Shown here: positions 12,551 to 16,878 of the stretch, one piece after another
Position numbering within the stretch: the first letter of the stretch is position 1
Layout: each line of letters starts with the position of its first letter
Source: a virus
Length of the DNA stretch: 28,215 nt
IMG/VR virus record: IMGVR_UViG_3300029448_000309
Coordinates: 1-28,215 of that record
Direction: 5' to 3' (one strand)
Notes under the pieces: model-generated
Told to the model about the DNA's origin: nothing
Seen by the model: the letters and a program-made list of their open reading frames with translations, nothing else
Database searches by the model: none
Program-made: the position numbers and the translations under genes

Positions 12551-13834
12551 TTAATATTGTAATGACACTCCTCTTATTCTAGCTTCTTTACTTCCACTAG
12601 CTTGGTTAGCAAAACTTATTTTATATTTTAAACTTGTTCCTGCTGTTACAGATAAGTCATTTACTTTTGCCATCTTAATTCCAGTAGCAAAATCTGGTAA
12701 AGCTGTCATTGTAGCAGTAGAATAATTTGAACCACCATCTGCTGAAAGTTGTAAAACTATATCTGTGTTCAAAGAATTTGTACCAGAAAAATCTTGATAT
12801 GTGATAACAGCCCCCATCTTGTTTGTTGATGATGCTGTAATATTGTTTCCAGTAAATGAGCCAGTTGCATTTGCAGTTAAACTGTATGTTGCAAAATTAG
12901 TATCTAACTCTGTAATTCCTGGATATGAATTTCCACCAGTATGGTGTGAAGTAGTAATCATAGCAAGTCTTTTAATTCCAATACTAGCACCATTAGATGG
13001 GTGTTGAATACCATTCCACCCATTAGAGTTTGATGCGTTTAAAACTGTACCATCTGTCCAAGATGAACCAGAAACGCCATCTCTACCATCTCCATTCCAA
13101 AAATGCCAAACATCACTTGTATCTTGATACATAAAATAGTGACCATTCACTCTGCCATCTGTATTAACTGAATACCATCTAAGATAACTACCTGGAATTA
13201 TTGCAAAGGTTGAACCACTATCAGCAACAAAATCAAGTATCATTGGTGAAACACCAGAAATATTACTAGAATAATTATAAGTAGTAAATTGATGAGGAGT
13301 TCCTGGTTTTGCTGAATAAGCACTACCACCCCAATAAGCCATTCCAGAATTTTGTGCTGTCTGACCATCAAAAAGTCTTAAAGAATTATTTGCTGCACCA
13401 TGTTGTCCAGGCATACCTGGTGTTGTTCTGCTTGTATTACCACTAAAATGACTATCTCGTTCTGCATTTGAGCCAATCGTTTCTGAAATTGTACTAATAA
13501 ATTCACTATCATTTCTAGCACAATTAGTCAGATTAGAAATAGCCGAGCTATCTTGGAATACATCAAAAGACGCAGAGTTAGAATTACTTGCATTAAGATT
13601 TTCTTGTGTGTGTACTCTTAATCCTAAAGTAGAAATATCATTAACAATTTTATTATCATCAAAAGATGTTGCGTGTTGAGAAACATTTGATGCCGCTATT
13701 CTAGCATCTGCAAAAGTACCAGATGTTATTTTAGATGCTGGAATATTTGGTATTTGTGCATCTGTTAATGTAGGTAAATCTGATACTGTAAATCCACCAC
13801 TAATTATGTTTGCTAAATCTCTTGCTTTAGTCAT
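12551..13834 (-). CDS. Tail fibre or receptor-binding protein, 427 aa
   Basis: The N-terminus MTKARDLANIISGGF, followed by PNIPASKITSGTFADARI (residues about 29-46), is a module familiar from marine phage tail fibres, where it attaches or trimerises the fibre. The rest is glycine-, serine- and asparagine-rich beta structure with aromatic patches (YLRWYSVNTDGRVNGHYFMY; DVWHFWNGDGRDG), typical of a receptor-binding tip, and the C-terminus (EARIRGVSLQY) resembles a beta-sandwich cap. It is the most distal gene of the virion block. The surrounding 12551-14780 region has no GATC site, unlike the rest of the window, which suggests exchange between phages. Confidence 0.78.
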   Translation of the reverse strand: MTKARDLANIISGGFTVSDLPTLTDAQIPNIPASKITSGTFADARIAASNVSQHATSFDDNKIVNDISTLGLRVHTQENLNASNSNSASFDVFQDSSAISNLTNCARNDSEFISTISETIGSNAERDSHFSGNTSRTTPGMPGQHGAANNSLRLFDGQTAQNSGMAYWGGSAYSAKPGTPHQFTTYNYSSNISGVSPMILDFVADSGSTFAIIPGSYLRWYSVNTDGRVNGHYFMYQDTSDVWHFWNGDGRDGVSGSSWTDGTVLNASNSNGWNGIQHPSNGASIGIKRLAMITTSHHTGGNSYPGITELDTNFATYSLTANATGSFTGNNITASSTNKMGAVITYQDFSGTNSLNTDIVLQLSADGGSNYSTATMTALPDFATGIKMAKVNDLSVTAGTSLKYKISFANQASGSKEARIRGVSLQY

Positions 13835-14120: not shown

Positions 14121-14813
14121 TTAAAATTCTAAATAATGAGTGTTTCCAGTTGATTCTCCACCAATGTAAGTAGTATTTCCACTTTGAGCTTTTATTTGGA
14201 AAGAATACGTTATGCTTGATGTCGTATTTGGACTATCTATAAAAACAATAGTACAAGGTTGTTCTGTTTGAAAACCACTACTACCTTGTTCATGAGTGAC
14301 AAACGAAGTTCCATTTGGAGCAAGATTTGTACTATCTCTAAAAATAGTAAGCCAAGACCTTGTAGATGTACCATTATTTCCAAAGTTTCCTGTAAAAGTA
14401 ATTAGAAACTTACTTGATGTTGAGGCTGGTGTGACAGTCAAATCTAACGTATTACTAGCTTTAGTAAATGATGTTGATGTTGTCGTTCTGCTTGTATTAT
14501 CATTAGCCGAACCAGTTGATATTATTCCTCCAGATGCATCTGCAAATTCAAGAGCATTAGCTCCAGAATTTACTTGCACTAGTTGTCCAGCAGTTCCTAA
14601 AGATAAACCAGCATTCCATATACCACCAGAACCAGCCGCAAATACATCCCAATGTGCTGTACTTGTAGGTGCATTACCAGTTGTAGCTTGTTTAGCAATG
14701 TAAGCATTACCGTTTGTTGAATAGTACACTACATCATTTTTTGCATAAGTTGTGCCAGAAGCATAGTCGCCTTTATGCGTAAATGAAAGTGATCCAATAT
14801 TTATTGTTGCCAT
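14121..14813 (-). CDS. Tail fibre/spike with carbohydrate-binding-like N-terminal module, 230 aa
   Basis: Residues about 13-59 (THKGDYASGTTYAKNDVVYY, then AYIAKQATTGNAPT and HWDVFAAG) have the W/Y and T-x-Y-x-x-x-D-V-V pattern of the small chitin-binding-like module (CBM5/12 type) common in phage fibres. The rest is threonine- and serine-rich beta structure with a likely beta-sandwich ending THYLEF. It probably binds host surface glycans. It is preceded by AGGATAACATATG, the same 13-base ribosome-site/start context as the gp15-like gene at 25561. With 12551-13834 it forms the receptor-binding cluster. Confidence 0.75.
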   Translation of the reverse strand: MATINIGSLSFTHKGDYASGTTYAKNDVVYYSTNGNAYIAKQATTGNAPTSTAHWDVFAAGSGGIWNAGLSLGTAGQLVQVNSGANALEFADASGGIISTGSANDNTSRTTTSTSFTKASNTLDLTVTPASTSSKFLITFTGNFGNNGTSTRSWLTIFRDSTNLAPNGTSFVTHEQGSSGFQTEQPCTIVFIDSPNTTSSITYSFQIKAQSGNTTYIGGESTGNTHYLEF

Positions 14814-14850: not shown

Positions 14851-16878
14851 TTATATTGTAGCAATTAATTCACCATTAGATAAGCTAAAAGTAAAGCCAC
14901 TTGCCGCAAATATAACGTCATCAAAACTAGCATAAGTAGCGGCACTTATATTGTCTTGACCTTGATTTGTTGTTGTAACCTGTACATTATTGTTAAATGG
15001 TACTGGTGTATTAGCTGTACCACCCATACCGCTATGACTTGTACAATAATAGTATAATTGTGGTGCAGATGCAGGTACAACATAAGTTAATGTAGTAGCC
15101 CCCACGTTTCTTGTAACCCCTGTAGTATACTCACTTCCTCCACCATGTGAACCATCTGCCGTAGTACTTAATGCAAAAGGATGTGCCGCAGGATATGTAA
15201 ATACATACGTATTACCTTCTAATAATTCTAATGTTTTTTGTGGAGTACCTAAAATATGAAATCTATTAGCACCTGCATAAGATGCAGATGTTACTGTATA
15301 ATTAACTGTAGATGCTACAAAAGATAAATTAAATCCATATACTTCTGCGCTAGATGCGTTTGCATATTGTAATGCGTTACCTGCTGGATTTACAACTAAT
15401 GCCTGTCCTGCACTTCCTAATGTAGATAAACCTGTACCACCTCTTGTTGTAGGTAATGTTCCAGATGTTATTGCACTAGCGGCTATAGATGCTACGCTAA
15501 ACGTACCAAATGCAATACAATCTACTACATCACCGTTTGCTAATGCAGATGCAAAAACTATACTAGATCCAGATGTTACTGTAACGTCTGTTCCATTTAC
15601 CTGCTTAACTCCATTCAAATAAACGTCAATAAATCCTGCGTCATATGCTAAATTATTTCCGTTTGCATCATTACCTGTTAAAGTTGTAGGTGTACCTGTA
15701 ACATTATATGTAAAACGTGCAGATGTACCATTTACTGTAGAACCTGCTGATTGCCAACCAGAAGAACCATATACTTTTAATTGATTGCTTGACGTATCAA
15801 AATATAAATCACCACTATCTAATGCACTACCATCTGGATCTTGTGTAGGTGCAGAACCGCTTGGCCCTAAATATGTGTTAGCAAAACTGTTTATGCTAGT
15901 TAAATTATTACCAGCAGTAATTACAGATGATGCTGAACCTGCTAGTGTACCTAGTCCAGATATACCAGCAAGTGTGTTAACATTAGCAATATCACCTGCA
16001 ACTGTATTTACACTTCCTATTGATCCGCCTACATGATTTATATTAGTTGCATTTGCAACTGCCGCATCTATGTTTGTTTGTTGAGAAGATGTTGGTGTAA
16101 GTTGTTTCCATACTGTATTACCAAGATCATAGACCTTCATAACATTATTAGTTGTATCAAAATATAATGCACCGTCTGCTAAAGTATTGCCATCATTGTC
16201 TACTGATGGGTTACTAGATTTACTACCTAAAAAATCATCATCAAATGTATCTAAAGCCGCTTCTGCCGCATTCTTTGCATTTTCTGCTGATGTAGCACTA
16301 CTAGCCGCCGCCGTTGCGCTGTTAGACGCATTAGTTGCGCTGTTAGCCGCATTAGTTGCGCTAGTTGCAATACCTGTACCATCAATAGTAGCATCTAAAC
16401 TATTTCCAGTAGCATCAAAACCAAGTAATTTACCTGCTCTTGCAGATGCATCATTTGTTATTTCTGGTGTATTTAATGTTGTTGATCTAGATACTTTAAT
16501 AGATCTATCTAATTGTTCTTGTAATTCTTGTACTAAAGATATTGATTTATCAAATGCACCTTCTACTGTTTCTGCACTAAAAGGATCATTTTCTACTAAA
16601 TCTAAAGTTTGTGTTTGACCAGTATTTCTACGTATAATAACAGTTTCACCAGATGCAGGTATATTACCAGATGTAAATGTAACATTACCACCACTAGCAT
16701 TACCAGCACCACTAACCGTATAGTGTGTTGTTATTGTTTTTATTGTTTCTGTACCACTAGATGCTCTTATAATAACTTGTATTTCGCTATCTAATGATAT
16801 TTTAAATGTGTATTGAAAAACAGATGTACTTCCGTTTCCAGCATAACTGTTTTTAGTATTAGTTGTAGATATGGTCAT
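14851..16878 (-). CDS. T7 gp17-like tail fibre carrying a cupredoxin-like domain, 675 aa
   Basis: Residues 1-135 (SYAGNGSTSVFQYTFKI; then VIIRRNTGQTQTLDL and AFDKSISLVQELQEQLDR) match the N-terminal domain that attaches T7 gp17 to the tail. Residues about 168-210 are an Ala/Ser/Asn heptad-like coiled coil. Two copies of a DG-x(4-6)-LYFDT-x(2)-N-x(2)-KVY-x(4-6)-W repeat lie at about 228-257 and 348-375. TTRGGTG (477-483) is a common fibre motif. Residues about 515-622 are cupredoxin-like: H566 in AHPFAL, then YYYCTSHSGMGG with C612, H615 and M618 in the CxxHxxM spacing of amicyanin-type copper sites. Copper binding is inferred, not shown. Confidence 0.85.
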   Translation of the reverse strand: MTISTTNTKNSYAGNGSTSVFQYTFKISLDSEIQVIIRASSGTETIKTITTHYTVSGAGNASGGNVTFTSGNIPASGETVIIRRNTGQTQTLDLVENDPFSAETVEGAFDKSISLVQELQEQLDRSIKVSRSTTLNTPEITNDASARAGKLLGFDATGNSLDATIDGTGIATSATNAANSATNASNSATAAASSATSAENAKNAAEAALDTFDDDFLGSKSSNPSVDNDGNTLADGALYFDTTNNVMKVYDLGNTVWKQLTPTSSQQTNIDAAVANATNINHVGGSIGSVNTVAGDIANVNTLAGISGLGTLAGSASSVITAGNNLTSINSFANTYLGPSGSAPTQDPDGSALDSGDLYFDTSSNQLKVYGSSGWQSAGSTVNGTSARFTYNVTGTPTTLTGNDANGNNLAYDAGFIDVYLNGVKQVNGTDVTVTSGSSIVFASALANGDVVDCIAFGTFSVASIAASAITSGTLPTTRGGTGLSTLGSAGQALVVNPAGNALQYANASSAEVYGFNLSFVASTVNYTVTSASYAGANRFHILGTPQKTLELLEGNTYVFTYPAAHPFALSTTADGSHGGGSEYTTGVTRNVGATTLTYVVPASAPQLYYYCTSHSGMGGTANTPVPFNNNVQVTTTNQGQDNISAATYASFDDVIFAASGFTFSLSNGELIATI

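Follow-up and report, generated by a model that had tools for sequence, protein, structure and literature searches.

A conserved cupredoxin domain with a predicted type-1 copper site near the end of a marine phage tail fibre

Why should the tail fibre of a marine phage carry the ligands of a blue copper protein? Such domains are familiar as electron carriers, soluble or membrane-bound, and as parts of copper enzymes. The present case comes from a 28-kb viral record, IMG/VR entry IMGVR_UViG_3300029448_000309; by the window we mean the whole stretch analysed, 28,215 nucleotides. The window most likely belongs to a phage that infects SAR11 or a close relative. It shares its gene order with Pelagibacter phage EXVC032P Baldr: the fibre comes after a very large internal protein and is itself followed by small structural genes and then by lysozyme and phosphodiesterase genes.

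The fibre and its predicted fold

The fibre gene and the parts of its product are laid out as follows.

14851–16878, minus strand: tail fibre gene, 675 residues (PHROG tail and tail fibre families, E to 1e-40; gene order as in Baldr)
16489–16878, minus strand: residues 1–130, virion anchor (PHROG matches over 1–132; 59–75% identity in 21 Pelagibacter phage records)
15346–15738, minus strand: residues 381–511, globular block (381–460) and flexible linker ahead of the cupredoxin (AlphaFold2 pLDDT; block also in phage Greip)
14998–15345, minus strand: residues 512–627, cupredoxin domain (AlphaFold2 pLDDT; Foldseek and VIA-align matches)
15181–15183, minus strand: H566, the predicted N-terminal ligand to copper, where strand 568–571 begins (167/168 relatives; DSSP)
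15043–15045, minus strand: C612, the predicted thiolate ligand, closing strand 608–612 (167/168 relatives; DSSP)
15034–15036, minus strand: H615, predicted ligand in the C-terminal loop (167/168 relatives)
15025–15027, minus strand: M618, predicted axial ligand (163/168 relatives; Gln in four gammaproteobacterial copies)
15145–15147, minus strand: H578, a nearby histidine that by its conservation is no ligand (missing in 12/67 close relatives)
14854–14997, minus strand: residues 628–675, conserved C-terminal tail behind the cupredoxin (74% mean pairwise identity, 25 fibres; AlphaFold2 pLDDT about 58–67)

The first-pass annotation had described a T7-like tail fibre with a beta-rich domain at about residues 515–622, near the C-terminus. 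The T7-like assignment holds for the N-terminal anchor, which matches PHROG tail families over residues 1–130 and is common to 21 pelagiphages. The location of the domain also stands; its bounds do not, being 512–627 instead, and the domain is near the C-terminus rather than at it, with 48 further conserved residues behind it. Its base composition is unremarkable within the fibre gene.

Two neighbouring genes deserve mention. Directly downstream of the fibre (14121–14813, minus strand) lies a 230-residue protein with weak matches to a CBM5/12 chitin-binding module (E 0.057, below cut-off) and to a tail fibre PHROG; it may be a further host-contact protein. A 427-residue protein closes the structural operon (12551–13834, minus strand); it has no match in PHROG and, in Pfam, a sub-threshold one only.

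What fold does the domain adopt? AlphaFold2, run on residues 512–640 with 66 relatives, gave an almost all-beta model (pLDDT 89.5, pTM 0.81). Cupredoxins are Greek-key beta sandwiches of seven to eight strands; the model has ten strands, and its structural matches are to cupredoxins. In a longer model (residues 381–675) the cupredoxin is again well folded, preceded by a flexible linker (residues 461–500, pLDDT 41–63; block 381–460, about 72–95) and followed by the poorly predicted tail. Foldseek matched the model, at E ≤ 1e-3, to 35 PDB chains; almost all are cupredoxins or multicopper proteins, among them rusticyanin, pseudoazurin, small laccases and a three-domain nitrite reductase. By VIA-align the best solved match is rusticyanin (Z 9–10, rmsd 2.4–2.6 over 92–94 residues, 22% identity). 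We are all but certain that residues 512–627 have the cupredoxin fold. Fold matches in BFVD included A0A481Z6J5, A0A481Z7Q7 and A0A481YVH3, small proteins labelled ‘beta-sandwich’ from metagenome genomes of Pithovirus and Marseillevirus.

How are the putative ligands placed? H566, C612, H615 and M618 occupy exactly the positions given in the first-pass annotation; C612 is one of only two cysteines in the fibre, the other being C454. By DSSP of the model, H566 is just ahead of strand 568–571, C612 closes strand 608–612, and H615 and M618 are in the loop that follows, a placement that matches that in blue copper proteins. The alignment with rusticyanin runs across the ligand region and pairs model residue 114 with rusticyanin residue 155. 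Provided that the last strand is ungapped, M618 (model residue 107) would thus stand opposite Met148 of rusticyanin, the axial ligand of that protein. It is very probable that the four residues make up a single mononuclear site.

Conservation of the ligands

The order of the ligands, H, C, H and an axial M or Q, with the last three in one C-terminal loop, is that of a type-1 site. Could it have arisen by chance? Among 20,000 shuffles of the fibre protein, C-x2-H-x2-M occurred at about 5e-5 per protein, and the same motif with a histidine 38–66 residues upstream did not occur at all. All four ligands are invariant in 67 distinct close relatives. A wider set of 169 distinct domains (median pairwise identity 48%) drew on phages, both metagenomic and isolate, on SAR11 single-cell contigs and on other bacteria and archaea. 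The three most conserved columns of this set, part of which came from patterns that include the C and the H, are H615, C612 and H566 (167/168 each). Since some relatives had been found by such patterns, the search was repeated with the ligand-free residues 512–563. This ligand-blind search yielded 33 distinct fibres; HP...CxxHxxM is intact in every one of the 29 that a contig end does not truncate.

The exceptions are instructive. M618 is kept in 163 of 168 relatives, and four of the rest, cellular copies from SAR92 and Porticoccaceae, have Gln in its place (CxxHARQGG). Gln is the natural axial ligand of stellacyanin. Each of these Gln-bearing copies ends a surface protein, and Ig-like domains are present in at least one of the proteins. 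In P-SSM7 a baseplate protein (L170_0_934) holds a decayed second copy (residues 550–672) beside an intact one, and in the decayed copy all four ligands are gone jointly. Judged from the sequences, the conservation, the change of Met to Gln and the joint loss are what one would expect of a working type-1 site and not of a bare scaffold. On the other hand, the first histidine is followed by Pro567 where most blue copper proteins have Asn, which counts against the type-1 reading; the proline is present in 160 of 168 relatives. Conservation, the AlphaFold2 model and the PDB matches together bear out the earlier claim of an intact H-C-H-M set within a cupredoxin domain on a host-recognition fibre.

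Distribution and exchange

How widespread is the domain? A search with the family consensus found it in 353 phage records, whose names all point to marine hosts or seawater; this agrees with the YYYCxxHxxM-like segments that the first-pass annotation placed in marine phage proteins. The carriers are phages of Synechococcus, Prochlorococcus, Pelagibacter and Methylophilales, and at least 594 IMG/VR stretches encode the domain. Tail fibres, gp9 connectors, baseplate wedge proteins and structural proteins all carry it, in up to four places per genome; the carriers with gp9 and baseplate wedge copies are cyanomyoviruses. A search of plasmids returned none with the domain. Cellular carriers include SAR86, Woeseiaceae, Porticoccaceae, Photobacterium, Flavobacteriaceae and Poseidoniales. 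Several of the cellular copies form the C-terminus of surface-type proteins that also have collagen, Ig-like or cadherin domains and in some cases a lipobox-like signal. A scan of ten neighbours of cellular copies found no copper genes, a point against a copper-loaded domain. The location is extracellular or on the virion. A fibre with the domain also occurs on 13 contigs, up to 117 kb long, of Pelagibacteraceae genomes, which may represent infected cells or prophages.

Is the domain a fixed part of the fibre? Three phages, cultured or cloned, that are closely related to the window carry it: HTVC028P, Baldr and the fosmid phage S30-C28. No copy was found anywhere in the whole genomes of HTVC034P, HTVC010P, HTVC035P, Lederberg, Skadi-7, Greip and HTVC203P. 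HTVC028P, Baldr and all of these non-carriers except HTVC203P were isolated on HTCC1062. Since carriers and six non-carriers were isolated on the same strain, the domain is dispensable for infecting HTCC1062. Greip shares the block at residues 381–511 and then has a different terminal domain. In Skadi-7 and Greip, on the same anchor, this other terminal domain looks cadherin- or Ig-like by eye, which is the kind of domain fused to the cellular cupredoxin copies. By such comparisons of sequence the cupredoxin is an exchangeable module of marine phage tails. The first-pass annotation had thought it unusual on a fibre; as a recurrent module that close phages of the same host do without, it is less unusual than that.

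Among carriers, a sample chosen by the domain, the cupredoxin ranks among the two most conserved fibre parts, at 72% compared with 52% in the anchor. This is unlike a typical fast-changing receptor tip, and counts against a role in contact.

Possible roles and known relatives

What, then, might the domain do? The odds seem to us about even that residues 512–627, on the fibre of a pelagiphage-like podovirus, are an exchangeable, extracellular type-1 copper domain which makes contact close to the fibre tip and is loaded with copper after release. Taken separately, copper is the probable native metal of the predicted site, and attachment is a role that we would neither press nor discount. The fibre would fold in the host cytoplasm, which holds practically no free copper; filling of the predicted site would therefore be placed after lysis, with copper taken from seawater. 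Close to the fibre tip the copper-loaded domain might then serve as a rigid module for contact, much as the same domain caps surface lipoproteins of bacteria and archaea whose stalks are collagen-, Ig- or cadherin-like. By fixing the ligand loop and its surroundings, copper could favour attachment to the host envelope or to a neighbouring part of the virion; metabolic electron transfer is not the use that we propose. A stricter version, in which the tail domain takes up seawater copper and its loading decides host binding, strikes us as improbable.

The gp9 and baseplate proteins also carry the domain, and there host contact is less obvious. Because of these copies, the main rival to a contact module is a structural role in the virion, in which the cupredoxin, with or without metal, stiffens the particle or joins tail parts, as in the gp9 connector between baseplate and fibre; the ligands would then be kept because the metal gives stable folding and not for host contact. 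The occurrence in up to four places per genome suits such a role, as do the metal-stabilised fibres already known (T4 gp37 with iron, cited in PMC11705849). Yet seven related pelagiphages build fibres on the same anchor without the domain, and it is also present on cell-surface proteins where no virion is involved, and we regard the structural reading as rather unlikely. Little weight, too, can be given to a cupredoxin-shaped adhesin that has lost its metal. The first-pass annotation had offered a decayed fold used as mere scaffold, a suggestion that would fit the H-P in place of the usual H-N and the failure of the window copy to match the PF00127 family. It sits badly with ligands that form the most conserved columns and stay intact in 29 of 29 loci sampled blind to them, and with ligand changes limited to Met to Gln and the joint loss of all four.

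The remaining two alternatives give the copper a more active part. In the first, a copper ‘Trojan horse’, the loaded tip would mimic a secreted cupredoxin and dock on a copper-uptake receptor of the host; SAR11 and Prochlorococcus are known for few, if any, TonB-dependent receptors, and we hold this reading to be very unlikely. It has precedents in the iron version proposed for marine phages (cited in PMC11705849) and in the azurin–OprC copper delivery reported in Pseudomonas (PMC6907878), although a later study with functional OprC saw no OprC–azurin complex (PMC8610252). In the other, exchange between Cu(II) and Cu(I) with a redox protein of the host envelope would signal contact and help to start DNA ejection. 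The full type-1 ligand set would allow it, and the hosts include photosynthetic picocyanobacteria, which have plastocyanin; but plastocyanin is inside the cell, no obvious partner is common to the SAR11, SAR86 and Poseidoniales settings, and the window has no obvious redox gene beside the fibre. We consider such a trigger highly improbable.

A conserved, apparently intact copper-type domain is present on hundreds of marine phage tails and, in plankton such as SAR86 and Poseidoniales, on proteins of the cell surface, which suggests a possible copper link for marine phages, parallel to the iron link drawn from iron-bearing fibres. HTVC028P and Baldr on the one side and HTVC010P, HTVC034P, Greip and others on the other share one host strain, and the role of the module is thus directly testable. 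If attachment were copper-dependent, copper speciation would tune the infection of the ocean's commonest bacteria, and the phages would be a pool of protein-bound copper.

How does the domain compare with known copper proteins? A single-sequence search of Pfam and NCBIfam gave no match for the window cupredoxin, which falls short of the 21.2-bit cut-off of PF00127 (Copper-bind; plastocyanin/azurin). Cellular relatives pass it, at 24.9 bits, the best among the matches listed, and 24.0 bits, and 12 of 23 cellular copies match the family at E up to 1. Homology to the blue copper proteins is supported through an intermediate, because a Woeseiaceae copy that passes the cut-off is 47% identical to the window domain. 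Sequence searches of the PDB reached plastocyanin at E 0.26–1 only. Profile–profile alignment to pseudoazurins scored poorly and placed their histidine on the region of H578, not H566; we set this pairing aside, since H566 is invariant among 67 close relatives and 12 of them have no H578.

Amicyanin, pseudoazurin and plastocyanin, the proteins of PF00127, share with the window domain the cupredoxin fold and the ligand order H-C-H-M, with the first His just before strand 4, the Cys ending a strand, and the His and Met in the next loop. The window copy differs in being part of a virion fibre, without a known electron partner and below Pfam detection. Its ligand spacing had been likened to both amicyanin and pseudoazurin. 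The amicyanin loop is indeed C-x2-H-x2-M, as here; that of pseudoazurin and plastocyanin is C-x2-H-x4-M, and pseudoazurins from genomes that also carry the domain read CxPHxxMAM. Even amicyanin has Asn after the first His, where the window has H-P-F, and a shorter stretch from that His to the Cys. Rusticyanin, the closest solved structure, also lacks this Asn (H85–S86), but it is a free periplasmic electron carrier with a C-x4-H-x4-M loop.

Among phage proteins, a YHYH metal domain has been predicted in tails (PMC7824862). In the open literature searched, with subscription journals and preprints thinly covered, we found no description of a cupredoxin in a phage virion; marine phage tails are a new and widespread setting for a known fold and site. 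The fibres of T4 (gp37) and Alteromonas phage R22Y have iron sites formed from HxH motifs (PMC11705849), likewise on a tail fibre near its receptor-binding end. The histidines of the window fibre (52, 282, 541, 566, 578 and 615 only) form no HxH motif, and its site is predicted to be within one chain. The gp9-type connector of cyanomyoviruses (PHROG 677) has a homologous C-terminal domain with the same ligands (1.5e-12); it is a part of the myovirus baseplate, not a podovirus fibre, and the match is confined to this C-terminal domain.
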